DNA of 39,779 nt from an uncultured Pelagibacteraceae bacterium (GTDB taxonomy: Bacteria; Pseudomonadota; Alphaproteobacteria; Pelagibacterales; Pelagibacteraceae): positions 1-39,779 of the forward strand of contig CACKKE010000005.1 of assembly GCA_902600635.1 (NCBI GenBank), in the 5' to 3' direction. This document shows, in pieces, positions 4,051 through 29,579 of this stretch (the stretch's first letter is position 1; the number at the start of each line of letters is the position of its first letter). The notes under the pieces are model-generated. The model saw only the letters and a list, made by a program, of their open reading frames with translations, did no database searches and was not told the DNA's origin. A program made the position numbers and the translations under genes.

Positions 4051-4875
4051 TCAAATTGTAATTTTTTGTTCTACCTCAAATTTTTTTAAGAGCCATAATT
4101 TTAAAGGTTCATAATGATAAGATGAGGAAAAATCATTAATGAATTCTGAATTTATTAAATCTTTTCTAACGAAAAAAGCATTAACACCAATAATATTACA
4201 ACAAACTAAATAATAACCTTTTTTTTCTAACATTATTTTAAAAGAGTTCAGAGAAGCACCAAAGTTATCGTCTCCTGACCACTGTTTTTTTTCATCATAG
4301 TCAGCAATCCACTCAATCTTATCTCTTAATTTTGCATTATACTCTGTAACTATTACACGTGGATTCACTTTTATTTCACTCAATATGTGATACGTATTAA
4401 TACCTAAGTCTATCGATAATAAATCAATTTCATCATTATCTGAGTAAAAACCATAAATTATTTGATTGACATTTTTTTTAGTAATCCTCTCTTTTTTAAA
4501 ATTTAAATTTTCTTTTATATAATTTCTAAAATCTAATCTTAATTTATTTTCATCAGTTGACATATCAACCCATAAACCAGACCAACCAGATTTGAGTAAA
4601 TACGTCGTGTTACATTCTTTTCCATCCTGAACACCAAGCTCAATAAACTTTTTTTGACTAATTCCTATTCTTTTAAATATTTCCTCTAATATTCCATCCT
4701 CATCTGATTGTGAGTACACTTTAAAACCAAAATTTATTAAATTTTTTGGTTCAGAATATTTTTTTGATTTTATGATATTATTATAATTAATTTCTACTAA
4801 AGCTTTATTAATCAAGTGAATTCTAGTGTGTCTTCCAATAAACCAAAGTATTTTATATAAAATTTTCTTAATCAT
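4051..4875 (-). CDS. FkbM-like SAM-dependent methyltransferase family protein
   Basis: 'YSQSDEDGILEEIFKRIG...FIELGVQDGKECNTTYLLKSGWSGLWVDMS...IDLLSIDLGINTYHIL'. Confidence 0.6.
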   Translation of the reverse strand: MIKKILYKILWFIGRHTRIHLINKALVEINYNNIIKSKKYSEPKNLINFGFKVYSQSDEDGILEEIFKRIGISQKKFIELGVQDGKECNTTYLLKSGWSGLWVDMSTDENKLRLDFRNYIKENLNFKKERITKKNVNQIIYGFYSDNDEIDLLSIDLGINTYHILSEIKVNPRVIVTEYNAKLRDKIEWIADYDEKKQWSGDDNFGASLNSFKIMLEKKGYYLVCCNIIGVNAFFVRKDLINSEFINDFSSSYHYEPLKLWLLKKFEVEQKITI

Positions 4876-6610
4876 TATTTTTAATTTTTATTAAATAACC
4901 ATTATCTAATTCCATTATATAATCACATCTTTTCAAGGTTTCTCTTCTATGTGAAACTAAGATTAAAATCTTATTTTTACAATAATTAAAAATATTATCT
5001 AATATTTTACTCTCATTTTCTATATCTAGCGAAGAAGTTGCCTCATCTAAAAATAATACTTGAGGATCCTTATAAAGTGCTCGAGCTAACCCTATTCTTT
5101 GTCTTTGGCCTCCAGAAATATTTATTCCTCTTTCTCCCAATTGAGTTTCTAAACCATTTGGTAAATTTGATATAAATTCATTTAATCTTAAATCTTGAAT
5201 AATTGTTCTTAACCTAGAATTATCTACGTTATTTTCTCCTAATGAAATATTGTTTTTAATAGTATCATTAAACAATACAGTATCCTGAGGAACATATCCT
5301 AAGAAATTATATATATAGTATTTGTCTGAGCTAATATTTCTATCGTTGTATTTCACATTACCTTCATCTGGATCAATTAATCCTAAAAGCAAATTTAAAA
5401 AAGTAGATTTACCAGTACCAGACTCACCAATAATTCCAATTTTTTCATTTTGTCTAATTTCTAAGTTTAAATCTTTAATCAATAGTTTTTGATGGTCAAA
5501 ATTATATGATAAATTTTTCACCGAGATATTGCTTATATTGAACTTACTTTTATCTACCTTTAAACTTTCTAAATTCTTTTTGTTCTCTACTTTTAAATTT
5601 GTGACAAGATTTATGTGTGTCTCAACAATATCTATCGATGGCTCCATGTATTTTATAGATGAGGTTGCTGATGTAATATTTGTAAATGCCGGCACTAATC
5701 TGATTGAAGCAACAGCAATATAAGATAAGATTGAAATTAATTCTGTGTTTGAAGACTTATAAAGAATAAAATATATTGAAATTGATACTACAAATAAAAT
5801 AGCAATAATTTCTAACATTAATCTTGGTATTCTTCTTAAAATATCTACGTATAAGATTATTTTGTTCATTCTAAATGTTACTTTTGAGAATAATTCGAAA
5901 AGATAATTTTCTTTTAAATTAATTTTTACTTCTTTAATGGCTGAATGAGTTTGATTTAAAATATTTATTTGATCTTTTGTAAATTTTTGCATGTTTTTAC
6001 CTGATCTGGCTAGCCATCCTTTAATAAAAATAAGATATAATAATGAAAATAAACCAAATATAGATAATGCTATTACCGTTATAATTGGATCAATCTTAAT
6101 TGTTAACAATATTATAAATGTTAAAACTGATATTTCTAATAACAAACGAATATAATGTCCTATTAATGCAACAAACCTTGTTACTTCCGCGACATTTCTA
6201 GTAAGTTCAGCTGATGTTTTTGATGTAAAAAATAAATAATTTGAATAAAGATAATTGTTGTAAATTCCTTTAGAAAATCTGTTATGAATTTTTCTTAGAA
6301 CAACACCGTTTAAAAAATAAAAAAATCCAAGAAATAAGTTTTTAAATAAAAAAACTAAAATCATCGTAAAAGATAAAAGAAGTAAAATATCTTTATCTGA
6401 GAGTTCACTAATAAACCCAAGAAAATCAAAATCTGATGTATAATTAATTAACTTTTCAGGATCCAAAATAAAAGTGACATAAATTGGAATAGTGCCCAAG
6501 CTTATGATTTCAAGAAAAGTAACTAAAAAAGTTAAAAAAATTATCAATATTAAAGATCTAATTTCATTTACTTTCAAGACATTTAAAATACGTTTAATAT
6601 TTTTAATCAT
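4868..6610 (-). CDS. ABC transporter, fused permease/ATPase (MsbA/PglK-type exporter or flippase)
   Basis: N-terminal TM domain; Walker A 'GESGTGKST', signature 'ISGGQRQRIGLARAL', Walker B 'VLFLDEATSSLD', 'LVSHR'. Confidence 0.95.
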   Translation of the reverse strand: MIKNIKRILNVLKVNEIRSLILIIFLTFLVTFLEIISLGTIPIYVTFILDPEKLINYTSDFDFLGFISELSDKDILLLLSFTMILVFLFKNLFLGFFYFLNGVVLRKIHNRFSKGIYNNYLYSNYLFFTSKTSAELTRNVAEVTRFVALIGHYIRLLLEISVLTFIILLTIKIDPIITVIALSIFGLFSLLYLIFIKGWLARSGKNMQKFTKDQINILNQTHSAIKEVKINLKENYLFELFSKVTFRMNKIILYVDILRRIPRLMLEIIAILFVVSISIYFILYKSSNTELISILSYIAVASIRLVPAFTNITSATSSIKYMEPSIDIVETHINLVTNLKVENKKNLESLKVDKSKFNISNISVKNLSYNFDHQKLLIKDLNLEIRQNEKIGIIGESGTGKSTFLNLLLGLIDPDEGNVKYNDRNISSDKYYIYNFLGYVPQDTVLFNDTIKNNISLGENNVDNSRLRTIIQDLRLNEFISNLPNGLETQLGERGINISGGQRQRIGLARALYKDPQVLFLDEATSSLDIENESKILDNIFNYCKNKILILVSHRRETLKRCDYIMELDNGYLIKIKNND

Positions 6611-6618
6611 TAAATTCC

Positions 6619-7890
6619 TTAGACTAATAATAAAATTTTTTCTCTTTGTTTATAAATAAAGTAAAAAACCCAATAAAAAGAAAAATAGAAATAAACCAGG
6701 TTTAAGTTTTTATTAATTAAATTTAGTATCAATTTTCTATCATATAATAAAACAAAAACAATAAAGTACATTGGTTCAAAATATTTCTGAAAAATATACC
6801 AACCAGATGAGAAAGAAATTAATATAAGAGAGGTTAGAAAAATATCACTTTTATTATTTAAAGAAAAACTCAATACAATTATTGAAAGCAAAATTGATAA
6901 AAGTAGATAAAAATTATAATTATCAAATATTAAATTATTCAATTTTATAAATGCACCACCACCTATTTGTTCATCATAAATAAAATTACTATGAAATAAA
7001 AAAATATAAACTACAAAAATTAAAATAAAAAAATAGAAGCTTTTTCTTTTTAATAAATTTTCAAAATATTTTTTGTCGTAAAGTGCTTGAATAAAAAAAA
7101 AAGGAATGAGGTAAATACTAATTATAGAAACAACAACTAATATTGAAGATGAAAAATTAGTTGCAGAAAATAAAATATTCTTAAACATTCCTAGATTATT
7201 TGCTAAATATATAAAGCCTGGAATCGATAAAAAACTACTTATTATAGAAATTGGAATTACATTAAATTTAAATTTCAAAAAAAATTTGAGAAAAAATATT
7301 GGAAAAAAAATAAGATAATATTGCTTCGTATAGGTAGCTAGAAATAAAAAAAAATAAGAAGTAAATATATGAATATTTTTTTGCTTCTGATTTTTTTCGA
7401 CTTTAATCAGATATAAAATAGCAACTAAAAAAAATATTATAGCTGTATTGTGGTTATTTCCCCATATAGCAGAGGATTGGAAATTTGGTAAAATTAATAT
7501 TATAGAGGAAAAAATTACTAATTTTGTCTTTTTGATTTGGTCAAACTTTTCTGTACAACATAAATAGAATAGATAAGGAACTAATAAACTAAACAAAAAA
7601 TAAAAATTTAGATAAGCATTTAAGTTATCGTTTATAAAATAAATTTGAGAAAAAATAATATGATGAAGAGGAAAATTTAGTAATTTACTATCAACCCCAA
7701 TTGCGCTTTTTTCCCCTGTTTCAATTTCTAAAATATTAAAAAGTCCTACATCCCTTATCTTCTGAATAAAATTCCAATGGGTTTGTAGGTCTGGTATAGT
7801 TCCTCCTGCTAAATCCAACTCAAAATAAAAAGATAAGAAGTAGGTCAAAGAAAATAATAAAGGAAAATAATAATTATTAGTTTTCATCAT
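6619..7890 (-). CDS. Polytopic membrane protein, candidate GT-C glycosyltransferase or polymerase
   Basis: Many hydrophobic segments; first loop 'GGTIPDLQTHWNFIQKI'; sits in a polysaccharide operon. Confidence 0.55.
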   Translation of the reverse strand: MMKTNNYYFPLLFSLTYFLSFYFELDLAGGTIPDLQTHWNFIQKIRDVGLFNILEIETGEKSAIGVDSKLLNFPLHHIIFSQIYFINDNLNAYLNFYFLFSLLVPYLFYLCCTEKFDQIKKTKLVIFSSIILILPNFQSSAIWGNNHNTAIIFFLVAILYLIKVEKNQKQKNIHIFTSYFFLFLATYTKQYYLIFFPIFFLKFFLKFKFNVIPISIISSFLSIPGFIYLANNLGMFKNILFSATNFSSSILVVVSIISIYLIPFFFIQALYDKKYFENLLKRKSFYFFILIFVVYIFLFHSNFIYDEQIGGGAFIKLNNLIFDNYNFYLLLSILLSIIVLSFSLNNKSDIFLTSLILISFSSGWYIFQKYFEPMYFIVFVLLYDRKLILNLINKNLNLVYFYFSFYWVFYFIYKQREKILLLV

Positions 7891-8948
7891 ATGGATTTGA
7901 AATTTTTAACAATATTAATAATAAATTTTCTGGACTGAATTTTTTTTTTTTGGATTTCAGTGTTAATAAATGAATAATCTATAACATCATCATAATTAAT
8001 GGTTGGTTTGAGAATTCTATTCTCTAAATTTAGAAATTTTAAAAAAAAATCTAATTTATTTTTTCTGTAAGGATCAATTGTATACCAAAATTTTTTGTTA
8101 TATTTTACAGCAAACTGGATTCCATGAAACATTGAGGTAAAAATTATGTCAGAAAATTTTAGAAATTTTAAAAATTCAAAAGGATCTGCATCTAATATAT
8201 TTAAATCAGCCCATTCATTATGATATCCTATTGATAAAATTAACAAATTTTTATTTTTACATAATTCAATAATTTTTTTTATTTCTTCCTTTGAAAAATA
8301 TTTACCATAAATCAAGCAATATTTTTTCTCAGGAATCTTTTTATTAATTTCGGTAAATATTTCAAATTCATTATCAATTAAAAATATTGGATCTAGGACT
8401 ATCTCTGATGAAATATTAAATTTATTTTTAAGAAAATTTTGAGAATTAAAATCTCTCACGGAAATAAATTTAAAACTTTTAAGTAAATTTTCAATTTCAT
8501 TTAATATATCATAATTTAAGTTTGATACCGAAATATTTCCAAAACTTGCTGCATAACTTGTTTTAAAATTTTTGTTAGATCTTCCAAAAAAAAATGGATC
8601 AAAACCAAAAAAAGGATTATCAAAATTCCAAACTTCATCGCTTCCATATATACTTAATAAATTCTTATCATAGTCTGATGGTGCAAATTTTTTACTGGGG
8701 AAGGATTTAATATACTTTTTTTTCCACTCTCTAAGTTTAAAAAATTTTTTAATACCTAGATATGAATGTAAAATATTTTTTTTGATAATAGGTTTTATTT
8801 CCTCTCTAAACAAAAATTGCGAAGGTTGATACTTATCAAAATAAACATTTACATTAAATTGTTTTTCTAAATAAATCTTCAAAAAAAGGCTTTGTAATAG
8901 AGCCCCATAATTATTACCATAAAAAAAAGTGTGAATAGAAATGTTCAT
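7887..8948 (-). CDS. Polysaccharide pyruvyl transferase family protein (CsaB-like)
   Basis: 'NNYGALLQSLFLKIYL', 'YGSDEVWNFD', 'SYAASFG', 'ISVRDFNSQNFLKN', 'VLDPIFLID', 'FTSMFHGIQFAVKYNKKF'. Confidence 0.85.
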   Translation of the reverse strand: MNISIHTFFYGNNYGALLQSLFLKIYLEKQFNVNVYFDKYQPSQFLFREEIKPIIKKNILHSYLGIKKFFKLREWKKKYIKSFPSKKFAPSDYDKNLLSIYGSDEVWNFDNPFFGFDPFFFGRSNKNFKTSYAASFGNISVSNLNYDILNEIENLLKSFKFISVRDFNSQNFLKNKFNISSEIVLDPIFLIDNEFEIFTEINKKIPEKKYCLIYGKYFSKEEIKKIIELCKNKNLLILSIGYHNEWADLNILDADPFEFLKFLKFSDIIFTSMFHGIQFAVKYNKKFWYTIDPYRKNKLDFFLKFLNLENRILKPTINYDDVIDYSFINTEIQKKKIQSRKFIINIVKNFKSI

Positions 8949-9982
8949 TTAATTTTATCTAAAATAATATTTTCTAGCTTTATCTTTTCACCTACAATTT
9001 TTTTTATTGAGTAAACAGTTTTAATTGCATCATTAGCTTTTTGGCTACCATTATTAATTAAACAATTAATAGTTTTATCTGATAAGGAAAAATAATTATC
9101 AGTATCTATTTGAAAACATTTTCTATAAACTTTATTGATTTTTTTTCTAAAGGTTAATAAATCAATTTTTTTATAAATTTTATTATTAATCATAATCTGC
9201 ATTAATTTAAAAAAAATATATAAAATAAATAATTTTACCGATTTAAACTTTATATCTGAGTATAAATTTTTTGTAGCAAATAAACTTCCAAGATTTGGAC
9301 GGTCACTTTCTTGAATTTTTTTTCTATGAAATTTAATTTTTTCGCTTTTCGATTTAATGATATCAATATTTTTTTTTTGTGAAGTTGGGAATTGGAAAAT
9401 TGCGCTTATAATTATGTCCTCATTTTCATGGTAAATTGATTTTCTCCACTCTAATTTCGCATCTTTTTTATCTCTTACAATAATTTCTCCTTTAGCATTT
9501 ATTGATTTAATGCTTGCTAAGTAATCTGTTAATCCTGACCCATAACATGAAGCATTCATATATATTCCTCCACCAACACTTCCTGGAATACCTAAAAGCG
9601 ATTCTGTTCCAGAGTATTCTTGTTTCATTACGTAATTAGCAAATCTAGGTATTGATACTCCTGCATCAACTTTTAATTCTAATTTATCTATATAAAGTTT
9701 TTGATTAATTTGATTTAACTTTGATAAATTCAGTATTGGTGTAAAAATTACACCATCACGTATAATTATATTAGATAAATTTCCTAAAATTTTATAATCA
9801 TACTTTTCTGAGTTTAAAAAATTGACTACTTTTATGGTCTCTTGCTCATCTTTTGGAGTTATATAGGTTCTTATTATTCCACCAGCTTTTAACCAAGATC
9901 GAATTGAAATATTAAAATCATTTATATATGCAATTTTATTTTCAATTAACCATTTTGAAATTTTTTCACTTTCAGTAATCAT
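8945..9982 (-). CDS. MurB-like FAD-dependent enolpyruvyl-sugar reductase, divergent paralogue
   Basis: 'SWLKAGGIIRTYITPKD', 'ILGNLSNIIIRDGVIF', 'LLGIPGSVGGGIYMNASCYG', 'LEWRKSIYH', 'RPNLGSLF' are MurB-type motifs; C-terminus diverges. Confidence 0.85.
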   Translation of the reverse strand: MITESEKISKWLIENKIAYINDFNISIRSWLKAGGIIRTYITPKDEQETIKVVNFLNSEKYDYKILGNLSNIIIRDGVIFTPILNLSKLNQINQKLYIDKLELKVDAGVSIPRFANYVMKQEYSGTESLLGIPGSVGGGIYMNASCYGSGLTDYLASIKSINAKGEIIVRDKKDAKLEWRKSIYHENEDIIISAIFQFPTSQKKNIDIIKSKSEKIKFHRKKIQESDRPNLGSLFATKNLYSDIKFKSVKLFILYIFFKLMQIMINNKIYKKIDLLTFRKKINKVYRKCFQIDTDNYFSLSDKTINCLINNGSQKANDAIKTVYSIKKIVGEKIKLENIILDKIK

Positions 9983-9990
9983 TTAGATAT

Positions 9991-10848
9991 TTATTTGAAA
10001 AAATTTTTCACTTTTTCAAAAATATTATTATTTTTTCTAACTCTATTTTTATGAAATTTTTTATTAAATTTATTATACTCTATGTTTTTCCAAATTTTAT
10101 TATTAGATGAAATTGCTATGTAACAAGCATTTCTAGAACCATCAATTTTGGTTACAGGATTTACATCATGAAAACTTATGTTGGATTGTAAACTTGCTAC
10201 TAATGAATTTGGTTTAGGTTTTATTACATTAGTAATTTCAAGAGTGTCATTCACTTTTTTCCATATTCTTAGTTCTCCACCCTCAATATGTTTGTACCCA
10301 CCAAAATATAATAAAATAGATATTAGTCTCTGGGGGTTATCAACATGAATTCCTTTACCTCCAGTGCTTTTTCCATATCCTATTGTCCCCATACCTAAAT
10401 CAAGTCTTGGATATAAAATATCATCTAGTGAATTTTCCACTATATCTGTTTTCGATAAAATTTTTTCAGTTTCAAAAGGATCAGACTTAATTTGATATTT
10501 AAGTATATTTTTTAAGTTTTTTTTTTTTATTTCTGTCTCAATGCTATCTTTAAATAGTTTAATAAAATAGTTAATAAAATAATCGCTATATATATAATTA
10601 TGTAACTCTTTGTACTCAGTTTCGTTTTTGATTAATTGGTCATACAATTTATCTTTGAATGATGTATCATAATTCATTCTATTAATCTTATTTTTTTGAT
10701 TTTTAAAATCAATTTCGGATGGAAATTTTTTTTCTATATTTTGGTAAAATTCTTTTTCAAAAAAGTCCTCTATTACAATGTAATGATAAGGATCTTTATA
10801 ATATGTTAATTTAAAATTTCTATTTATAAAATTCATATTTATTCCCAT
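9991..10848 (-). CDS. 2-oxoglutarate/Fe(II)-dependent oxygenase (prolyl-4-hydroxylase-like)
   Basis: 'YIVIEDFFEKEFYQNI', 'KGIHVDNPQRLISILLYF' (HxD), 'GGELRIW', distal His and Arg in 'ISFHDVNPVTKIDGSRNACYIAIS'. Confidence 0.8.
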   Translation of the reverse strand: MGINMNFINRNFKLTYYKDPYHYIVIEDFFEKEFYQNIEKKFPSEIDFKNQKNKINRMNYDTSFKDKLYDQLIKNETEYKELHNYIYSDYFINYFIKLFKDSIETEIKKKNLKNILKYQIKSDPFETEKILSKTDIVENSLDDILYPRLDLGMGTIGYGKSTGGKGIHVDNPQRLISILLYFGGYKHIEGGELRIWKKVNDTLEITNVIKPKPNSLVASLQSNISFHDVNPVTKIDGSRNACYIAISSNNKIWKNIEYNKFNKKFHKNRVRKNNNIFEKVKNFFK

Positions 10849-11965
10849 CAGAAAAAAACTTTTGTTTTGAAATTTCCCAAAGATTTTTTTTCATCAAAAT
10901 GTCTAAAAATTTTTTATCACTATTCCCAATTCCAAAAATATTTTTTTTTGTTTTTTTAAAGTTGGAAATAAATTTTAAGAAATTAATCTTGTTGAGATCA
11001 TCGACTTCATAATTTTTAATTGTACTTAGCTTCAATCTTTTGTATTGCCTGTCTCCAATATTAATTGAAGGTATGTTAAACATTGGTGCCTCATAAATTG
11101 CAGAACTTGAATTTCCAATAATAAATTCTGAATTTTTAAGTAAAGTAAGAAAACTTTCAAATCTTAAACTTTTTAAAACTTTAAAGTTTTTATTTTTTAA
11201 ATTATTATAAATATTTATGATTTGATTACTTCCAGGATCATTATTTGGATAAATTACTACAATCTTTTTATTTAAAGTTTCAATAAAATTAATTAGTTTT
11301 TGAGTATCTTTTTTAATTGAAAAAACTTTAGAAGTTACAGGATGCCAAAGTAAAATTCCATATCTGTTAAAATTAATTGAATATCTTTTCTTAACATAAT
11401 TAATAGTAGGAAGTTTTTTTTTTGTAATGATATCGATATCAGGTGAGCCTATATTAAATATACTTTTTTTATTTTCTCCCATTTTCAAAACTCTTTTATA
11501 TGCAGAGTTAGATCCTACAAAATGAATATGACTTAATTTTGTTACAGCATGTCTTATGGTATCATCAATAGTGCCTGATACCTCTCCACCTTCAATATGT
11601 GCTGTAAGAATATGATTTAGGGATCCCACCAAGGCGCAACTCAAGGCTTCCACACGATCACCATGAATAACGATTAGATCAGGATTTAATTTTCTTACTA
11701 CATCGGAAAATTTTTTTGTAGTTTTGGTAAGTATTAACTCTAATCTATCATTCAAAGATTGGTTTTTAAATTTTATAACATTTTTTTTGAAAGATTTTAA
11801 AACTTCTCTATACGTATTTCCAAATTTACCAATCATATGCATGCCTGTGATGACTATGTAAACTTTAAAATTTTTTCTTTTTTTAGTTATTTTTATTAAA
11901 GATTTAAGTTTACCAAAATCCGCTCTTGTGGATGTAACAAAAATAATTTTTTTATTTAAAATCAT
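10820..11965 (-). CDS. neuC: UDP-N-acetylglucosamine 2-epimerase (hydrolysing), NeuC family
   Basis: 'TSTRADFGKLKSLI', 'VIHGDRVEALSCALVGSL', 'AHIEGGEVSGTIDDTIRHAVTKLSHIHFVG', 'IGNSSSAIYEAP'. Confidence 0.92.
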   Translation of the reverse strand: MILNKKIIFVTSTRADFGKLKSLIKITKKRKNFKVYIVITGMHMIGKFGNTYREVLKSFKKNVIKFKNQSLNDRLELILTKTTKKFSDVVRKLNPDLIVIHGDRVEALSCALVGSLNHILTAHIEGGEVSGTIDDTIRHAVTKLSHIHFVGSNSAYKRVLKMGENKKSIFNIGSPDIDIITKKKLPTINYVKKRYSINFNRYGILLWHPVTSKVFSIKKDTQKLINFIETLNKKIVVIYPNNDPGSNQIINIYNNLKNKNFKVLKSLRFESFLTLLKNSEFIIGNSSSAIYEAPMFNIPSINIGDRQYKRLKLSTIKNYEVDDLNKINFLKFISNFKKTKKNIFGIGNSDKKFLDILMKKNLWEISKQKFFSDGNKYEFYK

Positions 11966-12986
11966 TTTTTTTTATTTGTATATTTTTTTTAATGATTTTT
12001 ACCGCTTTTTTACCATACAGATTTTTCAACTTATCAGAAGTAAAATGACCAGTGCCTGGTCTCATTACCCATATATTTTTTTTGGAAAATCTTTCACCTT
12101 TAAGTATTTTTCTAGTACTAACTACAGAGGCAAATGCAAACCTTCTTGTTACCTCCTCTTCTTTGAGTAACTTATTTTTGTTGCCTTTAATTTGAATCGG
12201 TATTCTATTCGATAGATTAATAAGTTCTTTTAGTTGATTTTGATCTATAGAAGACGAAATATCTGGTCCTTTTAAATTCATTTTACTCACAAAATGTTTT
12301 TCAATAATTTTAGCTCCAAAAGATAAAGCAATTGTCGATGATAATAAATCTCCAGTATGATCTGATAAACCTATTATAGTTTTTGGGAATATTTTTTTCA
12401 ATTGCGAGATACTATTAAGTCTTAGATGTTTATCGCTAGTTGGATAGATATTTGTTGTATGGAGTAAAGCAAATTTTGTTTTTCTTTTTTTTAAAAAAAG
12501 AAAAGTTTTTTTTACTTGTCTGAGATTATGTAGTCCAGTGCTTACAATTAAAGGTTTTTTAAATTTTGAAACATAATCTAATAAAGGGTAATTGCTCATC
12601 TCTCCAGATCCAATCTTAAATGCTGATACGCCAAATTTAATTAGTCTATCAACTGCATTTCTAGAGAAAGGGGTGCTCAAAAAAATCATTCCTTTTTTTT
12701 CAACATATCTAAATAATTTAAATTCCTCCTCCTTATTTAATGAATTTTTTTTTATTATTGAAAAAATATCATTTTTTGAATTTCCAGGCCTAATTTTTTT
12801 TGCTTCTTCAGACATTTCATCATCAATAGTATGGGTTTGATGTTTTATAATTTCTGCGCCTGAATTCTTTGCTGCATCTACAATTTTAAATGCTGTCTCA
12901 ATTTTTCCCCCATGATTAATTCCAATTTCTGGTATAATTAATGGTTTAGAATTATTACTTATAATTCTATTTTTAATTTTTATCAT
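11952..12986 (-). CDS. neuB: N-acetylneuraminate/legionaminate synthase family (NeuB) with SAF-like C-terminus
   Basis: 'IPEIGINHGGKIETAFKIVDAAKNSGAEIIKHQTH', 'FLSTPFSRNAVDRL', 'FKIGSGEMSNYPLL', 'IGLSDHTGDLLSSTIALSFGAKIIEKHF'. Confidence 0.93.
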   Translation of the reverse strand: MIKIKNRIISNNSKPLIIPEIGINHGGKIETAFKIVDAAKNSGAEIIKHQTHTIDDEMSEEAKKIRPGNSKNDIFSIIKKNSLNKEEEFKLFRYVEKKGMIFLSTPFSRNAVDRLIKFGVSAFKIGSGEMSNYPLLDYVSKFKKPLIVSTGLHNLRQVKKTFLFLKKRKTKFALLHTTNIYPTSDKHLRLNSISQLKKIFPKTIIGLSDHTGDLLSSTIALSFGAKIIEKHFVSKMNLKGPDISSSIDQNQLKELINLSNRIPIQIKGNKNKLLKEEEVTRRFAFASVVSTRKILKGERFSKKNIWVMRPGTGHFTSDKLKNLYGKKAVKIIKKNIQIKKNDFK

Positions 12987-12995
12987 TAAATATTA

Positions 12996-13652
12996 TTAAA
13001 ATCGCTTTATTATAAAACTCGGCACTTTGTAGAAACTCATTTTTTTTAACTCAAGTTTTTTGTTTTTTTTCAAAAAATTGTCTACAACTTTTGTAGCTCC
13101 TTCAACTGTACCATAGTCATCTACAAGAATGATACCATTTTTTACAATTCTATCTTTAAGTTTGTTTAGCACAAAATTTGTTGAGTCAAAAACATCCATA
13201 TCCAAATGAAGAAGAGATATTCTCAAGTTTGGATTTTTGTTAATAAATTTATTGAGAGTTTTCAAAACATTTCCCTCAACTAACTCAAAGTTATCGAATT
13301 TTTTGTTAACTAAAATTTTATCAAGATTTTGTTTTGATATTGGTTTACCTGCATCCAGTGTAAACTCTCTTTTTAATTTTCTGTCACCTTTTCTTCTCTG
13401 TGCTGGGAAATTTTTAAATGTATCAAATCCATAGATTTTTCTGGAGAAATTATTTTCTATTATTGATCTAAATGTTAAAAATCTTATTAAACTGTTACCT
13501 TTGAAAACACCAAATTCAAGAATATCACCAGGTAAGTTTTTTATTAATTTAAATATTTCATATTGATAAATAAGTTTTCCTATTCTTGAAATATCAGTTT
13601 TTTGATGAAAAATATTTTCAGCTTCCCAAACAGATATGTTATTTTTTTTCAT
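12996..13652 (-). CDS. TylF/macrocin O-methyltransferase-like SAM methyltransferase
   Basis: 'GDILEFGVFKGNSLIRFL', 'IYGFDTFKNFP', 'LLHLDMDVFDSTNFVLNKL', 'GIILVDDYGTVEGATKVVDNF'. Confidence 0.85.
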   Translation of the reverse strand: MKKNNISVWEAENIFHQKTDISRIGKLIYQYEIFKLIKNLPGDILEFGVFKGNSLIRFLTFRSIIENNFSRKIYGFDTFKNFPAQRRKGDRKLKREFTLDAGKPISKQNLDKILVNKKFDNFELVEGNVLKTLNKFINKNPNLRISLLHLDMDVFDSTNFVLNKLKDRIVKNGIILVDDYGTVEGATKVVDNFLKKNKKLELKKMSFYKVPSFIIKRF

Positions 13653-13722
13653 ATTTTTATGTAAAAGAAATAATAAATAATTTATCCTTTTTTTTTCTTC
13701 ATTTGTAAACTATAAAAAATTT

Positions 13723-14673
13723 ATGTCTAAGATTGAGATAATTATGTATCATTACGTTAGAAGCAAAAACTACTCTAAGTATAAAAAATTAAATTATCTT
13801 GATTTTAAATCATTTAAAAAACAATTAGATTATCTTGAAGACAACTATAATGTCTTAGATCCATCTATATTAACTCAAAAAAAAACAAACATTCCAAAAA
13901 AGTCATGTATTTTAACTTTTGATGATGGATATAAAGACCATATAGATTTTGTTTTTCCGGAGCTAAAAAAAAGAGGGATTAAGGGTATTTTTTTTCCAAC
14001 TGGCATCACAACTTTAGAAAATAAGATACTTGATACGAATTTAGTTCAACATATTCTCTCAGTAAATAAAAATAAATATCTTTTAATTAAAGAGGTCGAA
14101 ACTCTGTGTATGGAAAATGGATTAAGTAAAATAGATTTTTATAAAAAATATATGAAGTATTCTGTGAATCCAAAAAAAAAATCTACAAAACCAACGAATA
14201 GATATGACGATCAAAATACAATCTTTTTGAAAAGAATTTTACAATTTGGTTTAGAGAAAAGTTTAAGAGAAAAAATTGTAAAAATTTTATTTAAGAAATA
14301 TATAAAAATTCCAATTAACAAATTTTCAAAAAATTTTTATCTTAATAAAGATGATATAAACAAATTACTAGATAATGAAATGATGATTGGATCACATACT
14401 TTTAACCATGTTTGGCTTGGTTACTTATCTAAACAAGAGCAATTTAAAGAAATTAAACAATCAATTGAGTTTTTGAATTATTTTAAAGTTTCCACAAATA
14501 ATTGGGTAATGTGTTATCCTTTTGGATCTTACAATTCAAATACTATAAATGTTCTCAAGAAACTTAATTGCTCAAGCGCTGTTACAACTAAATCAAAAAT
14601 TGCAGATTTAAATGCAAAAAAAATATTTGAACTTCCACGAAAAGATACTAATGATTACAAAGATCTTTATTAG
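13723..14673 (+). CDS. Polysaccharide deacetylase (NodB-homology)
   Basis: 'MYHYVRSKN', 'CILTFDDGYKDHIDFVFPELKKRGIKGIFFPTG', 'MIGSHTFNHVWLGYLS', 'CYPFGSYN'. Confidence 0.9.
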   Translation: MSKIEIIMYHYVRSKNYSKYKKLNYLDFKSFKKQLDYLEDNYNVLDPSILTQKKTNIPKKSCILTFDDGYKDHIDFVFPELKKRGIKGIFFPTGITTLENKILDTNLVQHILSVNKNKYLLIKEVETLCMENGLSKIDFYKKYMKYSVNPKKKSTKPTNRYDDQNTIFLKRILQFGLEKSLREKIVKILFKKYIKIPINKFSKNFYLNKDDINKLLDNEMMIGSHTFNHVWLGYLSKQEQFKEIKQSIEFLNYFKVSTNNWVMCYPFGSYNSNTINVLKKLNCSSAVTTKSKIADLNAKKIFELPRKDTNDYKDLY

Positions 14674-15710
14674 TTTGGTCTATCTTGGTCACAATCTCCC
14701 TTAAAAAAAATCATTTTTTCTGAGGATGGATAAAAAGCATATCTAAGTTTAATATTCTTTTGTACAAATGGTTTAAAATAGTTTGGTATAATTATTTTTT
14801 TTGTTATTTTTTTTATTTTAAATCCAGAGGAAATTATTTTTTTTTTACTGATACCAAAATTATAAAAATCAATATATTCAAAATTTCTCTCTTCACAAAG
14901 TTTTTGAAAATCATTTGTAAAATTTGATATTTCATCAATACTACCAAAGTATTCAATTAATCTTAAACATTTATAATTAGAAAATTTATCTTCTCTCGAA
15001 ATAAAAAAGCCTCTTAAAAAGTCCTTATTTTTAAGAAATAAAAAATTATACTTGTAAAACTTGTTATGATAATACTTTCTTTTGAAATACTCAAAATTTT
15101 TCTTGTAGATTTTTTCATAATTTTTAACGTTATAAATAAATTTGTAATTAGTTTTAAAGTTTAGATAAAATAATTTCGGTTTTTTTTTTTTAAAATGAGG
15201 TATTTTATTTTTTGCAAAATTTTTTACTAAATTAAAAGTTTTTTTCTTTTTGTTCAAATAATAAAAATGATTTAATTGACCACATTTAAAACCTAAAGCC
15301 TTATAAATTTTATAGGTATGAAAATTACATCCAACAGTTGCTATTGTAAGATTTTTTTGTATTTTTTTTATCATAAAATTTATTAACCTTAAGTTATCAT
15401 TTCCAAAGATTGTTTTATTAGTGCACCACAATGTAAGCCAAACAACTTGGTTTTTTAAAAGAAAAATTTTTTTTAAGTCTGAAACTTTATAATTATTAAA
15501 TAACAATCCAATGGAAGATAAAATTTTTCCTTTTGTTTCAAGGGTTAGAAAATTTAAATTACCTTTCAATTTGTATAATGAGTCAAAAAGTTTTTGATTC
15601 TTTATTAAAACATGTTCTCTTGACCAATTATTTTTCAAATGATCTATTATTTTTCTTCTTCTTTTAATTTTTTGTGGAAAATTTATCTTAATCATCCTCA
15701 ATAATTTCAA
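14670..15710 (-). CDS. GNAT-like acyltransferase candidate, last gene of the FkbH/ACP module
   Basis: 'LNFLTLETKGKILSSIGLLFNN...QVVWLTLWCTNKTIFGNDNLRLINFMIKKIQ' and 'IYKALGFKCGQLNHFYYL' are GNAT-like; C-terminal half unassigned. Confidence 0.5.
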   Translation of the reverse strand: MKLLRMIKINFPQKIKRRRKIIDHLKNNWSREHVLIKNQKLFDSLYKLKGNLNFLTLETKGKILSSIGLLFNNYKVSDLKKIFLLKNQVVWLTLWCTNKTIFGNDNLRLINFMIKKIQKNLTIATVGCNFHTYKIYKALGFKCGQLNHFYYLNKKKKTFNLVKNFAKNKIPHFKKKKPKLFYLNFKTNYKFIYNVKNYEKIYKKNFEYFKRKYYHNKFYKYNFLFLKNKDFLRGFFISREDKFSNYKCLRLIEYFGSIDEISNFTNDFQKLCEERNFEYIDFYNFGISKKKIISSGFKIKKITKKIIIPNYFKPFVQKNIKLRYAFYPSSEKMIFFKGDCDQDRPN

Positions 15711-16086: not shown

Positions 16087-16310
16087 TTTTTTTTAATTTT
16101 ATTAATAATCTGACTTATCTTTTTTAAAGAGGTCATTTCATCTATAGAAAATTTTATTTTAAATTTTTTTTCAACAAGTAATAAAAGATTTAAATGGGCT
16201 AAAGAGTCCCATTTTTTAAAACTACCTACTTTAAGATCGTCAATATTATTTTTAATTCTTTCCTTAGGAAAAGTTTTAATCAAACATTCTCTTAATTTTT
16301 TTTTAATCAT
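16083..16310 (-). CDS. Acyl carrier protein
   Basis: 75 aa; phosphopantetheine site in 'FKKWDSLAHLNLLLLVEKKFKIKFSIDEMTSL'. Confidence 0.85.
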   Translation of the reverse strand: MIKKKLRECLIKTFPKERIKNNIDDLKVGSFKKWDSLAHLNLLLLVEKKFKIKFSIDEMTSLKKISQIINKIKKK

Positions 16311-17955
16311 AAATTTTTATCATTTTATTATTCAATTCCTCTTGCCTTAGTGAATAAACAGAGCTACCAGGACTTTTCCATGAAAATTTTCCATTATCAA
16401 TTTTAAAAGAATGTTTTTTAAAAAAATCTTTACAAATAGTTTTGTTTTTATCAGTTACAATATGTTCACCGTAAATTTTCTTAATTCCTTTTTTTTTACA
16501 AATTTTTTTTATTTCATAAAGCATCCATGTTTCTAAATATCTTCCAAAAACCCTACAGCTAATTAGAAACGTATCTATAAAGATAGAATAATTATCAATT
16601 TTTTTTAAAATCATTAAACCAATTATCCCATGGTCTCCATAAAGATCTTTTAAACTGATCAACTTAATTTCTGTATATTCTTTTTTATTTAATTTGAGAA
16701 TATCATTCATAGAATATCTTTTTGTTCTTAAATTAAATTGATTTGTTTTTTGTGTCATTTGTGAGGCTCTTGCAATATTGTCTTTATTTAAATTTATAAC
16801 TTTTGGTTCAAGTTTTATAGATTTTAAATATTTTATTTCATCTGTGGCAATTTTTTTTTCATCAATAAATTTTGATCTAATTTTGTATTGTTTAATTTTA
16901 TTTTTGTCCTCTTTTGTAACTTTTATTTTTGAAAAAAGTTCAAAATTTTCTATTTGAGTTGGCCAATTTATTATGTTTTGATCAGGTTCAACTACGTATA
17001 CTTCTGGTAAAAACTTTTTAACCTTATTTCTTTCTAATGGATTATCATCCCAAAAAACAATACTATCCAAGGACAAATTTAAATCTTTAGCTATTTCTTT
17101 TATGTTTAAATATTTTTCTTTCCAATTAACTTTTATAGATACTAAGTCATTTTTCGATATTTGCATTTGTTTGTGATTATTGAAAACTTCCATTACATCC
17201 TTGGTGTTATTTTTACTTGATATACATAAAAGCACACCTTGTTGAGATAATTTTTTGATTTTCCTCTGAAAATCAACATATGCTTTACCTATTCCGTCTT
17301 GACCTAATAAAATATTATTAATTCCATCTTCACCAACTATTCCTCCCCATAATGTATTATCGCAATCAAGCACTAATACTTTTTTTGGGGTCGTTATAAA
17401 TTTAGTTAAAATTTTTTTTAGTGATGTGGCAATTAGTTCATGACCATAAGAACTTAACCTACAGTTTGCAAGATACCAATTTCTTTTATCGAATATGTTT
17501 TTATTTGAATTTTCAAAAATAGAATTAAAATTAAGTAAAATAAAATTTGAGTGTTTTTTACTTAAAAATAATAATTTATCATATAAATTTTCAAAATTCT
17601 CATCAATCATATTTTTCGTAGACAAATAATCAAAAATATTTTCACCTCTTTGGTTTATAAGAAATAAAATTAGTGGTGATGAAGAGTTCCTTAATCTAAA
17701 TTTTACTAAATTAATAATGGAATCATTTATCTTTTTTAAATCTTTATTTTTGTAATTTTTATTTTCGTCAATTAAATCGTTAATAAAAATTGCAGTAAAT
17801 AATGTATTTTCTTTAGGAGAATTATAAAAACCTTGGGTAAAATTATTAACAAATTTAAAATCCAATTTATTTGTGAAAGAAAATTTTTCGTTCCAAGCAT
17901 AATGATTAGGAATTAAATAAGATGTGCTAGAAATACTGATTTTGTTTTGAGCCAT
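16303..17955 (-). CDS. FkbH-like HAD-IIIC family protein (glyceryl-ACP-forming type)
   Basis: 'VLVLDCDNTLWGGIVGEDGINNILLGQDG', 'FQRKIKKLSQQGVLLCISSKNN', 'VFWDDNPLERNKVKKFLPEV', 'KTNQFNLRTKRY'. Confidence 0.93.
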   Translation of the reverse strand: MAQNKISISSTSYLIPNHYAWNEKFSFTNKLDFKFVNNFTQGFYNSPKENTLFTAIFINDLIDENKNYKNKDLKKINDSIINLVKFRLRNSSSPLILFLINQRGENIFDYLSTKNMIDENFENLYDKLLFLSKKHSNFILLNFNSIFENSNKNIFDKRNWYLANCRLSSYGHELIATSLKKILTKFITTPKKVLVLDCDNTLWGGIVGEDGINNILLGQDGIGKAYVDFQRKIKKLSQQGVLLCISSKNNTKDVMEVFNNHKQMQISKNDLVSIKVNWKEKYLNIKEIAKDLNLSLDSIVFWDDNPLERNKVKKFLPEVYVVEPDQNIINWPTQIENFELFSKIKVTKEDKNKIKQYKIRSKFIDEKKIATDEIKYLKSIKLEPKVINLNKDNIARASQMTQKTNQFNLRTKRYSMNDILKLNKKEYTEIKLISLKDLYGDHGIIGLMILKKIDNYSIFIDTFLISCRVFGRYLETWMLYEIKKICKKKGIKKIYGEHIVTDKNKTICKDFFKKHSFKIDNGKFSWKSPGSSVYSLRQEELNNKMIKIYD

Positions 17956-18578
17956 TAATTTTTTAAATCTGAATAATTGTCGATGTCTAATGAATATTTT
18001 TTTTTTGTAATATATACGTTTTGGGGTGTTTCGTATATTGAATTTTTATTAATTAACAAATTAACTTTGAACAAGTAAATGTTTCCATTAAAAGAAAGAT
18101 CTTTAATTTTAAGAAATTTTTTTTTATTTAATATATTAATTTTTTTTTTTATTGCTGTTTTTCCTAAATAATTTGAAACTGAATGAATAGAACTTAACTT
18201 ATATTTTTTTGCATAATATAACATTTGATGAATATCTCTTTGATTTCTAAGGGGACTAGTTGGTTGTAACAATAAAATATATTGTTTTTTTGAAATTTTA
18301 TATTTTTTTATTAAATACTTCAAAACACTTTCTGATTTTGTCGAGGATAAAGCTAATTTTTTTGGTCTATTATCAATTAAAAATTTTTTAGAAAATTTTG
18401 TAGAAAAATTTCTAATTTTTTCGGAATCAGATGAAACTATAATTTTTTTAACTCTTTTGAGCTTTAATGATTGTTTTAATGTCCAGTAAATTAAAGGTTT
18501 ACCTTTAAAATTTGACAAATTTTTGTTAATTATTCTCTTTGAATTTTTTCTAGCTAATATAACACAATTAAATATCAT
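17955..18578 (-). CDS. neuA: Acylneuraminate cytidylyltransferase (NeuA family)
   Basis: 'VILARKNSKRIINKNLSNFKGKPLIYWTLKQSL', 'IIVSSDSEKI', 'YILLLQPTSPLRNQRDI'. Confidence 0.9.
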   Translation of the reverse strand: MIFNCVILARKNSKRIINKNLSNFKGKPLIYWTLKQSLKLKRVKKIIVSSDSEKIRNFSTKFSKKFLIDNRPKKLALSSTKSESVLKYLIKKYKISKKQYILLLQPTSPLRNQRDIHQMLYYAKKYKLSSIHSVSNYLGKTAIKKKINILNKKKFLKIKDLSFNGNIYLFKVNLLINKNSIYETPQNVYITKKKYSLDIDNYSDLKN

Positions 18579-18582
18579 TATT

Positions 18583-20343
18583 ATGCAAGTTACAAAAAAA
18601 ATTTTCCTCTTGTTCCATTGTATTATATTTTCAGAAATAAAGTCATTCTTAGATAAAATTTATTATATTAATTATTTCTTAAAAAATATAAATTTATTGA
18701 AATATATAGGTTTTATATTTTATAGAAATAAAATTAATCCTTTCAAGTCACTCTCATTTCAAAGATATATTATCGAAAACAAAAAAAAGTGGCATAAATT
18801 AAAATTTGAAACAAACTCGAATGAAAAAATTTTAGTAGAAAATTTTATTAATCAAGCAGCCTACGGAATGAGCAACGCAATTATTTCCAAATTTTTATCT
18901 AAAATTAATAACAATGAAATTATAGGTTTTATTCGTGATGGTGATCTTAAAAGTGAAATAATTTTTAGAAGTTTTGGAATTCAAAAATTTATAAAACTAA
19001 AAAAAAAAAATATTTATCAAAGATTAAAGTATAATATTTTAGCCTTTATTAAAATTTTAAAAATCAACTCGCTAAATGATTATTGTAAAATTCAAATTAA
19101 AAATATTGATATTGGATTGCCAGCATATGATTCATTTATAAGATACACTGGCATTCCTACTGCAAAAGAAATGAGTTCTGATCTAATATTTTTTTTAGCA
19201 GAAACATTATATGTTTATGATAAATTTGAAGAAGTTATAAAAAAAGATAGATCAATTAAACATCTAATTCAATCAGAAACTGCATTTGTACCATTGAATA
19301 TTTTTTTTCAAGTTTCATTAAAAAATTCAATTAAAGTATATTCAAGACTGGGCACAGATAAATTTTCTATTCGTAGATATGACAATTCTAAGCAAAGATA
19401 TTTTTATAGAGCCAACATATCTCAGAAATTACTTGATGAAGTACATAATAATTTTTCAAAAAAGTGTAATACTGATATTCAAAAATATTATAAAGGCCTC
19501 CAAAAAAAAGGTTATTTTGGTCAAGATTTAAGAATTAGAGCAAAATTAAAAAAAAGACTTAAATTAATTTCAAAAGATGAAATTCTTAAACGATTTAATT
19601 GGAGTCGTCAAAAAAAAATTGTTGTATTCTTTTTGAATCATCTAATTGATGTTAATTTTCATTCGGGGCCAAGAACTATTTTTAAAGATAACTATACTTG
19701 GACAAATTTTTTATTAAATAAAATTAAATCAATTAAGAATGTTAATTGGATTTTGAAAGATCATCCAAGTCAGCCATTTTACAAATCAAAATTAAATTTC
19801 GAAAAAGAAATAAAATCATTAACCAAAAAATTTTCACATATAAATTATTTTAATCTTGAATGGGATGCTGCATCTTTAAAAAAGATTGCTGATTTGGCTA
19901 TTACATCACATGGCACAGTTGGGGTTGAATATCCATCATTTGGCATCGATAGTCTTTATGTGGAAAATTCTTTTTATTCGAATGTTGATATTAAGAAAAA
20001 AATTTCTAACATGAATGAATTAAATAAAAAATTAAAAAAATTAGATAAAACTAAAAGAGTAAAATCAAAAATTTGTAGAAAGGCTAATTCATTTTTGTAT
20101 ATTCGATACATTCTTCTTCAGAACAAATGTTCAATAATTCCATCACATGATACTTCCAGACAAATAGATGAAAATAAATATTGGCAAAATTCAACAAATT
20201 TAATTAAAAAATTTTCTTTTGGAAATGATGAATTTTATAAAATGTTTAAAATACAATTGAAATATAATATGAGGCATACTGTAAACTTTAATCAGCTTAA
20301 TTTAAAAAAAATTTATTATAATGATTTAAGTGAAAATTGTTAA
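18583..20343 (+). CDS. Capsule polysaccharide biosynthesis (GT-B/KpsC-KpsS-like) protein, candidate glycosyltransferase
   Basis: ORF 18523..20343, trimmed to ATG 18583 (MQVTKKIF) to avoid overlap with divergent neuA; 'NWILKDHPSQPFY', 'DLAITSHGTVGVEYPSFGIDSLY'. Confidence 0.55.
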   Translation: MQVTKKIFLLFHCIIFSEIKSFLDKIYYINYFLKNINLLKYIGFIFYRNKINPFKSLSFQRYIIENKKKWHKLKFETNSNEKILVENFINQAAYGMSNAIISKFLSKINNNEIIGFIRDGDLKSEIIFRSFGIQKFIKLKKKNIYQRLKYNILAFIKILKINSLNDYCKIQIKNIDIGLPAYDSFIRYTGIPTAKEMSSDLIFFLAETLYVYDKFEEVIKKDRSIKHLIQSETAFVPLNIFFQVSLKNSIKVYSRLGTDKFSIRRYDNSKQRYFYRANISQKLLDEVHNNFSKKCNTDIQKYYKGLQKKGYFGQDLRIRAKLKKRLKLISKDEILKRFNWSRQKKIVVFFLNHLIDVNFHSGPRTIFKDNYTWTNFLLNKIKSIKNVNWILKDHPSQPFYKSKLNFEKEIKSLTKKFSHINYFNLEWDAASLKKIADLAITSHGTVGVEYPSFGIDSLYVENSFYSNVDIKKKISNMNELNKKLKKLDKTKRVKSKICRKANSFLYIRYILLQNKCSIIPSHDTSRQIDENKYWQNSTNLIKKFSFGNDEFYKMFKIQLKYNMRHTVNFNQLNLKKIYYNDLSENC

Positions 20344-27886: not shown

Positions 27887-28516
27887 TTATTTTTTCGACA
27901 ATTTTTTTGTCAATTTTGAAATATTTGAATCTTCTTTATAAATTTGTGCCATTGTTTTTGCAGTTTCATTTGGAGCATATTTAAATGCAATTTTTAATAT
28001 ATCCATCCAATTGGAATTATTTTTTTTTCTTATTTTTTCAATTTTTTGAATTAATTTTAAGTAATTAAATTTATTTAGTTCTTTTTTCATAAATATTTTA
28101 TCTTTTTCAATCTTATATATTTTATAATTCAATCCTCTAAATAATGATATAGAATTTTTATTGTATCTATTAACATTTGCATAAATAGATCTTATGTTTT
28201 TTTGAACCTCAATCTCAACATATCTTAACGCTAGTTTTGCTATTCCAAAATTTTGCCAATTTTTTAAAACTGCTATCGAGACAAAATTTTTAAATTCAAT
28301 TTTTTGAACTCTTACATATCCTACTTGTTTTTTTTTAACTGAAATAATGTATAAAAAAAAATCTTTTCTTAAATGATTTTGTTTAAACCATTTATAATGC
28401 TCTAAATATGGTATTTTTTTTTTATCAGTTGAAAATTTTCTTGAAATATTTTGATTTCTAACTTTTAGTATAAATTGAATATTTTTTTTTGTTGCTTTTT
28501 TAATTTTGATTATCAT
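27887..28516 (-). CDS. GNAT acetyltransferase (PseH-like) with C-terminal helical extension
   Basis: 'KATKKNIQFILKVRNQNISRKFSTDKKKIPYLEHYKWFKQNH', 'VGYVRVQ', 'VSIAVLKNWQNFGIAKLALRYVE'; about 50 aa tail 'KNNSNWMDILKIAFKYAPNETAKTMAQIYKEDSNISKL'. Confidence 0.75.
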   Translation of the reverse strand: MIIKIKKATKKNIQFILKVRNQNISRKFSTDKKKIPYLEHYKWFKQNHLRKDFFLYIISVKKKQVGYVRVQKIEFKNFVSIAVLKNWQNFGIAKLALRYVEIEVQKNIRSIYANVNRYNKNSISLFRGLNYKIYKIEKDKIFMKKELNKFNYLKLIQKIEKIRKKNNSNWMDILKIAFKYAPNETAKTMAQIYKEDSNISKLTKKLSKK

Positions 28517-28541
28517 AAATAGTTGTCTAATAATAATTCAA

Positions 28542-29579
28542 ATGTTCGATAAAAAAAATAATAAACCCTTTTTAATTGCAGAAATATCTTCCAATCATAA
28601 TGGAAAGATTAATAACGCAAAAAAACTGATAGATTTAGCTAAAATTTCAGGGGCAAACGCTGTAAAACTTCAAACATTTACTCCAGAAAAAATGTCTTTA
28701 AAAATAAAGTCTGATCTTTTTAAAATTAAAGAGGGTAATTGGAAAAATTATTATTTATATGAATTATATCAAAAAGCTCAAACACCATTAATTTGGCACA
28801 AAACTTTATTTGCTCATGCAAGAAAAAGAAAAATATTAATTTTTAGTACGCCTTTTGATGAAGACTCTGTTGATTTTTTAGAAAAAATAAATTGTCCTAT
28901 GTATAAAATTTCTTCATTTGAAATGACAGATATTCCACTTATTAAAAAAGTTGCATCAACAAAAAAACCGATGATTATATCTACAGGTCTATCAAATCTT
29001 AAAGAAATAGATTACACTTTTTCAATAGCAAAAAAATATGGAGCAAAAAAGATTGCATTACTTTATTGCGTAAGTAATTATCCAGCAAAAACATCAGATT
29101 TCAATCTAAATAACATTAGGATTCTGAAAGAGAGATACAAGTGTACAATAGGATTATCTGATCACTCAAATGATAACGAGATTGCACAAAATGCAATTTC
29201 TTGTGGCGCAGAGATCATTGAGAAGCATGTCGCATTAGAAAATCAGAAATCAGGCTTAGATTTAAATTTTTCAGCAAAAGGTTTAGAGTTAAAAGTTTTT
29301 AGAGAAAAAATTGATAAAGCGTACTCTTTACTTGGTAAAAAATTTTTTTATAGAACTAAGTCTGAATTAAAAAATATAAAATTCAGAAGATCTATATTTG
29401 CTAGAAAAGACATTGAAAAAAATGAAAAGTTTTGTTCAAAAAATATTGTCAGAGTACGTCCGGGTTTTGGGTTACCTCCTATTTACTATGAAAAACTTCT
29501 AAATAAAAAAAGTCCTTTTAAAATTAAGAAGGGACAACCTCTAAAAAATATTATTTTAAAAAAATTAAAGATAAAGTGA
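28542..29579 (+). CDS. pseI: Pseudaminic acid synthase (PseI, NeuB family)
   Basis: 'FLIAEISSNHNGKINNAKKLIDLAKISGANAVKLQTFTPEKM', 'YLYELYQKAQTPLIWH', 'FSTPFDEDSVDFLE', 'YKISSFEMTDIPLI', C-terminal SAF-like region; start trimmed to ATG 28542. Confidence 0.9.
   Translation: MFDKKNNKPFLIAEISSNHNGKINNAKKLIDLAKISGANAVKLQTFTPEKMSLKIKSDLFKIKEGNWKNYYLYELYQKAQTPLIWHKTLFAHARKRKILIFSTPFDEDSVDFLEKINCPMYKISSFEMTDIPLIKKVASTKKPMIISTGLSNLKEIDYTFSIAKKYGAKKIALLYCVSNYPAKTSDFNLNNIRILKERYKCTIGLSDHSNDNEIAQNAISCGAEIIEKHVALENQKSGLDLNFSAKGLELKVFREKIDKAYSLLGKKFFYRTKSELKNIKFRRSIFARKDIEKNEKFCSKNIVRVRPGFGLPPIYYEKLLNKKSPFKIKKGQPLKNIILKKLKIK

Follow-up and report, generated by a model that had tools for sequence, protein, structure and literature searches.

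The window analyzed here is a 39,779-nucleotide stretch of DNA from an uncultured Pelagibacteraceae bacterium (GenBank assembly GCA_902600635.1, contig CACKKE010000005.1). It carries a pair of minus-strand genes, one encoding a 345-amino-acid (aa) flavin adenine dinucleotide (FAD) reductase that is a specialized paralog of MurB and the other a 353-aa polysaccharide pyruvyl transferase of the PF04230 family. The two proteins very probably constitute a functional two-enzyme module, and with a probability of roughly 0.6 we propose, from the sequences and their gene context, that the module makes a 1-carboxyethyl (lactyl) ether on a surface-glycan sugar by way of an enolpyruvyl ether. A role of the MurB-like protein outside murein synthesis is well supported by the separate canonical murB of its relatives and by its archaeal and phage members.

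A MurB-like gene overlapping a PF04230 gene

The initial annotation had described a MurB-like gene overlapping a pyruvyl transferase gene by 4 bp, and this was confirmed by reading the junction, AAAATTAAATGAACATT, in which ATGA is shared by stop and start. The 353-aa protein matched the Pfam PS_pyruv_trans family at 2.1e-19 and 70.9 bits, above the cut-off of 25.3. The 345-aa protein matched FAD_binding_4 (PF01565) at 2e-15, while its MurB_C match (21.0 bits; cut-off, 27) and its matches to the NCBIfam MurB models PRK13905 (2.2e-48, 164.7 bits; cut-off, 259) and TIGR00179 (4.4e-35, 121.3 bits; cut-off, 144.5) were below threshold. It is MurB-related, yet under every curated murB cut-off. Since the next junction downstream of the PF04230 gene (positions 7887-7890) is also a 4-bp overlap, the overlap of the pair is ordinary operon packing and proves little alone. 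What goes beyond chance is the recurrence of the pair in unrelated genomes.

Recurrence of the pair in cellular genomes

Loci were collected by MurB sequence rather than by neighbor, and the neighbors were read afterwards. The search profiles were built from pair proteins, and their scores are consequently not independent, whereas the neighbor test is. PF04230 was adjacent or fused in 10 of 10 cellular loci with a specialized MurB-like gene. Five of these belong to the window's genus: the window itself, L003 with the same gene order and 2 bp between the genes, L004 and L005 with the genes convergent and 2 bp apart, and L006, in which a PF04230 gene cut by the contig end lies 3 bp from the MurB-like gene. 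The others were found in Vibrio nigripulchritudo (L036; 4-bp overlap), on a plasmid of Novosphingobium sp. P6W (L116; reversed order, 4-bp overlap), in Cetobacterium somerae (L117; adjacent, swapped order), in the haloarchaeon Natrinema pellirubrum (L118; 17-bp overlap, swapped order) and on pAES7 of Paracoccus aestuarii (L119), where a single 845-aa fusion protein comprises PF04230 (aa 50-257), FAD_binding_4 (559-679) and MurB_C (724-820). The gaps between paired genes ranged from -17 to +13 bp. Because the order is swapped in L116 to L118 and the genes are convergent in L004 and L005, proximity has been kept through rearrangement.

Across the 157 loci scanned, PF04230 occurred only at specialized ones and at 0 of 132 other MurB loci, for which the fetched flanks were about 1.5 to 8 kb. 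The plasmid-borne MurBs of L138, L139, L142 and L143 had no PF04230 within 4 kb. The initial annotation had staked its proposal on the pair being conserved elsewhere, and it was found to span the window's genus, Vibrio, Novosphingobium, Cetobacterium, Natrinema, the Paracoccus fusion and phage contigs. The ratio of nonsynonymous to synonymous substitution rates between L004 and L005 was 0.108 for the MurB-like gene and 0.089 for the PF04230 gene, indicating that both are under purifying selection.

Phage and virus contigs

MurB-like and PF04230 genes were side by side on five IMG/VR contigs (L190, L193, L195, L196 and L197) and 1.3 kb apart on a further one (L194). The phage PF04230 assignments were confirmed with Pfam except that of L196, which was judged from its similarity to L195; both of these contigs also encode a terminase-like protein. 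A scan of the viral contigs with a single protein gave no match, and the phage loci were recovered with an alignment as query. On L186 to L189 and L192 no PF04230 gene neighbored the MurB-like gene, and the L191 match resembles an ordinary murB. None of the proteins had a match in PHROGs, and the MurB matches among INPHARED records resembled the usual bacterial murBs of the hosts listed there. With the pair adjacent on five contigs, phages may decorate glycans by means of the same PF04230/MurB-like module. As a separate observation, a virus contig carries a small nonulosonate-like pathway: positions 1462-5406 of L186 encode a DAHP/NeuB-family synthase, a protein of the sialyltransferase family GT29, the MurB-like protein and a cytidylyltransferase, an arrangement also present on L192.

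The window protein is distinct from the canonical MurB

The metagenome-assembled genome (MAG) from which the window derives comprises 706,570 bases at 59.7% completeness, and the window protein is its only MurB match. This leaves room for the explanation that the gene is simply the displaced peptidoglycan murB of this genome. In the same incomplete MAG, murA, murC and ddl above cut-off and a canonical murB were all not found, so that the absence affects the murein genes as a group. A full-length MurB-like homologue with 41 to 45% identity occurs in four relatives from the same genus, and each of them has a separate canonical murB, over the curated cut-off, between murC and ddl. V. nigripulchritudo likewise has a second MurB homolog besides the specialized paralog. 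In the tree, the window protein clustered with the paralogs of its genus, of Vibrio and of Novosphingobium (100/97) and not among the canonical murBs of its order. Displacement is therefore extremely unlikely, and the candidate role of sole peptidoglycan MurB was rejected. The initial annotation had regarded its proposal as untenable if this were the only murB; with a second murB in four of four relatives and a MAG that lacks murA, murC and ddl, that objection did not hold. Archaea have no peptidoglycan, so the MurB-like protein of Natrinema cannot serve murein synthesis.

Conserved catalytic residues and altered substrate-site motifs

In MurB, an Arg/Ser/Glu set provides the substrate-carboxylate and proton-donor residues. 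Alignment with 121 canonical MurBs showed that the corresponding columns, R180 (121/121), S233 (120/121) and E337 (120/121) in the window protein, are kept in the specialized paralogs. By eye, the C terminus (LENII versus LEPEV) had suggested loss of the catalytic Glu, an assignment rejected when the alignment set E337 in the Glu column; in Natrinema, the catalytic Glu was restored to its column in alignment A2. In some phage members Cys replaces the catalytic Ser, and the position is not absolute there.

Other columns are replaced in the paralogs, namely, P225 (P in 121/121 canonical proteins), K236 (K in 108), P238 (P in 117) and H304 (H in 109). The motifs QP, GSxFK(N/R)P and SxKH lie near or bind UDP-N-acetylglucosamine (UDP-GlcNAc) in MurB structures. 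The window protein has QE, GSLFATK and SDKT in these places, and across the group from the window to Vibrio, QP, FK(N/R)P and SxKH become QE/QD, F(A/S)T(K/R) and SxxT, with the lysine of FK retained in Natrinema and Paracoccus.

These changes bear on the suggestion that the MurB-like protein makes UDP-N-acetylmuramic acid or a related nucleotide sugar for a surface polysaccharide, using a MurA from elsewhere in the genome, with PF04230 incidental. A precedent of this kind exists on a plasmid of Agrobacterium sp. MA01 (L140, 3923-6283), where a MurB copy recruited to an exopolysaccharide cluster lies next to an enzyme transferring enolpyruvyl groups from phosphoenolpyruvate (PEP). Its partner is a MurA-like carboxyvinyltransferase and not PF04230, and this locus therefore probably makes a UDP-muramic-type sugar by an independent route. 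In the pair loci, the neighbor is PF04230 rather than MurA, one member comes from an archaeon and the canonical signatures are changed, making this explanation very unlikely.

The initial annotation had called for structure prediction. The AlphaFold2 model of the 345-aa protein was confident, with a mean predicted local distance difference test (pLDDT) score of 89.3, weak only at an insert around residues 240 to 300 and at the C terminus, and its fold is that of MurB. The 18 best Protein Data Bank (PDB) matches were all MurB, with template modeling (TM) scores to the target of up to 0.85, and included 1uxy, the S229A mutant of Escherichia coli MurB with enolpyruvyl-UDP-GlcNAc. Weaker structural matches included DprE1 and alkyl-dihydroxyacetonephosphate synthase, and a BFVD search returned general FAD oxidases only.

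Proposed reaction and alternatives

The PF04230 protein has R165 and H275 at the PEP-binding Arg/His positions of the family, and both are invariant in the alignment of cellular and phage members. The corresponding CsaB residues, R148 and H308, are needed for PEP use according to mutation experiments, while the R306 contact comes from docking only (PMC10435577). In the first step of the reaction we propose, the PF04230 protein would bind PEP and a glycan hydroxyl, release phosphate and form an enolpyruvyl ether, without closure to a cyclic ketal. In the second, suggested by the conserved catalytic residues, the MurB-like flavoprotein would reduce this ether with NAD(P)H via FAD to the lactyl ether, the Arg/Ser/Glu set acting as in MurB. 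Since the PF04230 protein belongs to the CsaB/Pvg1p family, the acceptor is probably a lipid-linked oligosaccharide. The pair clusters of the window's genus and Vibrio contain NeuB. Those of Novosphingobium, Cetobacterium and Natrinema contain nucleotide-sugar (UDP-glucose) dehydrogenases, and the acceptor in these clusters could for this reason be a uronic acid.

The proposal parallels MurA and MurB (UDP-GlcNAc enolpyruvyl transferase and UDP-N-acetylenolpyruvoylglucosamine reductase), in which a PEP-derived group is placed on a sugar hydroxyl and then reduced by a flavoenzyme, and the second enzyme of the pair is a MurB homolog with the Arg/Ser/Glu set kept. It differs in its first enzyme, which is PF04230 (glycosyltransferase B [GT-B]-like), unrelated to MurA and without the MurA/5-enolpyruvylshikimate-3-phosphate synthase fold, and in its changed substrate-site signatures, surface-glycan context, and archaeal and phage members; UDP-GlcNAc is also an unlikely acceptor. 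With the ketal pyruvyl transferases of the CsaB/Pvg1p/WcaK type, the PF04230 member shares the family and the conserved PEP-binding Arg/His. Unlike them, it has an obligate MurB-like partner, the proposed product is an open-chain ether rather than a ketal, and the CsaB R306 equivalent appears not to be kept.

Several points weigh against the proposed product. The characterized PF04230 enzymes are ketal transferases (PMC6801904, PMC10435577). The CsaB equivalences were placed by a family motif, CsaB itself lying outside the alignment; on this placement, M273 occupies the apparent position of R306, while R295 or K298 could serve as CsaB K328. The structural model of the PF04230 protein was poor (pLDDT, 63.9), and a fold search from it returned general GT-B matches only; its alignment held no stretch conserved enough for use as a search query. 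The pair is also rare, occurring in 4 of 297 other genomes of the order and in 1 of 394 genomes of the Vibrio order (V. nigripulchritudo only), and no other full-length specialized member was found among 399 Pseudomonadota genomes sampled. The tree has long branches, and the paired MurBs are polyphyletic in it, with at least two changes of the pair label on well-supported branches and five by parsimony. Taken at face value, within the limit set by those long branches, it would indicate either repeated recruitment of MurB to PF04230 or an old association with losses. Both readings point to a functional link, which is therefore favored. The lactyl ether itself is inferred from the gene pairing and the kept residues.

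In a less probable alternative, PF04230 makes its normal cyclic pyruvate ketal and the MurB-like protein acts on another sugar of the same glycan, for example, as an FAD sugar dehydrogenase of the vanillyl-alcohol oxidase type, the two being neighbors only because both modify the glycan. The known activities of the family favor it, as do the varied reactions of FAD_binding_4 proteins and the structural matches to DprE1 and alkyl-dihydroxyacetonephosphate synthase. It does not sit well with the close one-to-one association of the two genes in different phyla, in an archaeon and in phages, with the fusion, with retention of the residues for enolpyruvyl reduction or with the ranking of MurB structures far above other FAD families. 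An improbable variant leads to the same lactyl ether, with the MurB-like enzyme reductively opening a ketal or reducing a PF04230-bound or ring-opened pyruvyl adduct. PF04230 would then stay ketal-type, and the pairing and fusion would still be explained. However, MurB reduces a C=C bond that is in conjugation with a carboxylate, and a ketal is not such a substrate.

Several bacterial capsules and O-antigens contain sugars with lactyl ethers, and the capsules of Klebsiella K22, K37 and K66 carry 4-O-(1-carboxyethyl)-glucuronic acid. This sugar corresponds to the product proposed for the pair. In K8, K22, K37 and K66, pyruvyltransferase genes lie in the cps loci and the capsule is reported as unpyruvylated (PMC4616057). 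Among all Klebsiella cps loci, the same study lists two genes for nitroreductases and one of the F420-hydrogenase type, their positions not stated (PMC4616057). These K-types and the capsule sugar would fit with PF04230 enzymes whose final product is not a ketal. In the literature searched, no genes for lactyl-ether formation on bacterial polysaccharides were described, and nothing was found on a MurB/PF04230 pair.

The surrounding glycan island

The initial annotation had placed the pair in a polysaccharide operon with no other peptidoglycan genes. This was borne out, as no peptidoglycan synthesis genes were recognized in the 20 window open reading frames (ORFs) scanned, ten around the pair (4051-14673) and ten elsewhere, and the neighbors are nonulosonate and surface-glycan genes (Table 1). 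The large island ORFs at 18523-20343, 16303-17955, 14670-15710, 6619-7890 and 4051-4875 had no Pfam match at 1e-3. A second nonulosonate pathway lies in the same contig at 28506-34670. In two relatives, the pair adjoins a 16S-tRNA-tRNA-23S operon (L032, 11301-15921; L035, 5541-10165), the G+C content is 23%, and the genomes are of about 1.1 to 1.3 Mb. Together these features suggest that the pair is located in a SAR11-type hypervariable island, the rRNA-operon flank looking like an island insertion site.

Table 1. Features of the window discussed in the text
Feature	Position	Strand	Basis and remarks
PglK-like ABC transporter, candidate lipid-linked glycan flippase	4868..6610	-	Pfam and NCBIfam; ABC transporter of similar size near pair in L032, L033
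423-aa hydrophobic protein, probably multi-pass membrane	6619..7890	-	4-bp overlap with PF04230 gene; context
PF04230 polysaccharide pyruvyl transferase	7887..8948	-	353 aa; R165, H275
ATGA stop/start overlap of the pair	8945..8948	-	Read from sequence
MurB-like FAD reductase, specialized paralog	8945..9982	-	345 aa; R180, S233, E337
2-Oxoglutarate-Fe(II) oxygenase-like protein, 285 aa	9991..10848	-	Pfam; same operon, context; not conserved with pair
NeuC-type UDP-GlcNAc 2-epimerase	10820..11965	-	TIGR03568 above cut-off; context
NeuB-family nonulosonate synthase	11952..12986	-	Pfam and NCBIfam; context; NeuB near pair also in L032, L033, L036
TylF-type methyltransferase	12996..13652	-	Pfam; context
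Second NeuB	28506-29579		Second nonulosonate pathway
DegT aminotransferase	29576-30760		Second nonulosonate pathway
679-aa cytidylyltransferase and class-III aminotransferase fusion	32631-34670		Second nonulosonate pathway

Implications

We regard it as about an even chance that the pair represents a second, non-MurA route to lactyl-ether sugars, in which GT-B-like enolpyruvyl transferases of the PF04230 family and a repurposed MurB have spread among bacteria, haloarchaea and phages. If the proposed reaction is correct, it would supply genes for the 1-carboxyethyl ethers that bacterial polysaccharides have long been known to carry, and PF04230 would be a family with two reaction outcomes. A conserved and sometimes fused module would make the origin of lactyl ethers directly testable and the glycan structure predictable from sequence. 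A peptidoglycan synthesis annotation should be avoided for MurB matches that fall in polysaccharide loci. The module would show that a peptidoglycan enzyme was recruited to decorate surfaces, with even an archaeon and phages among the carriers.

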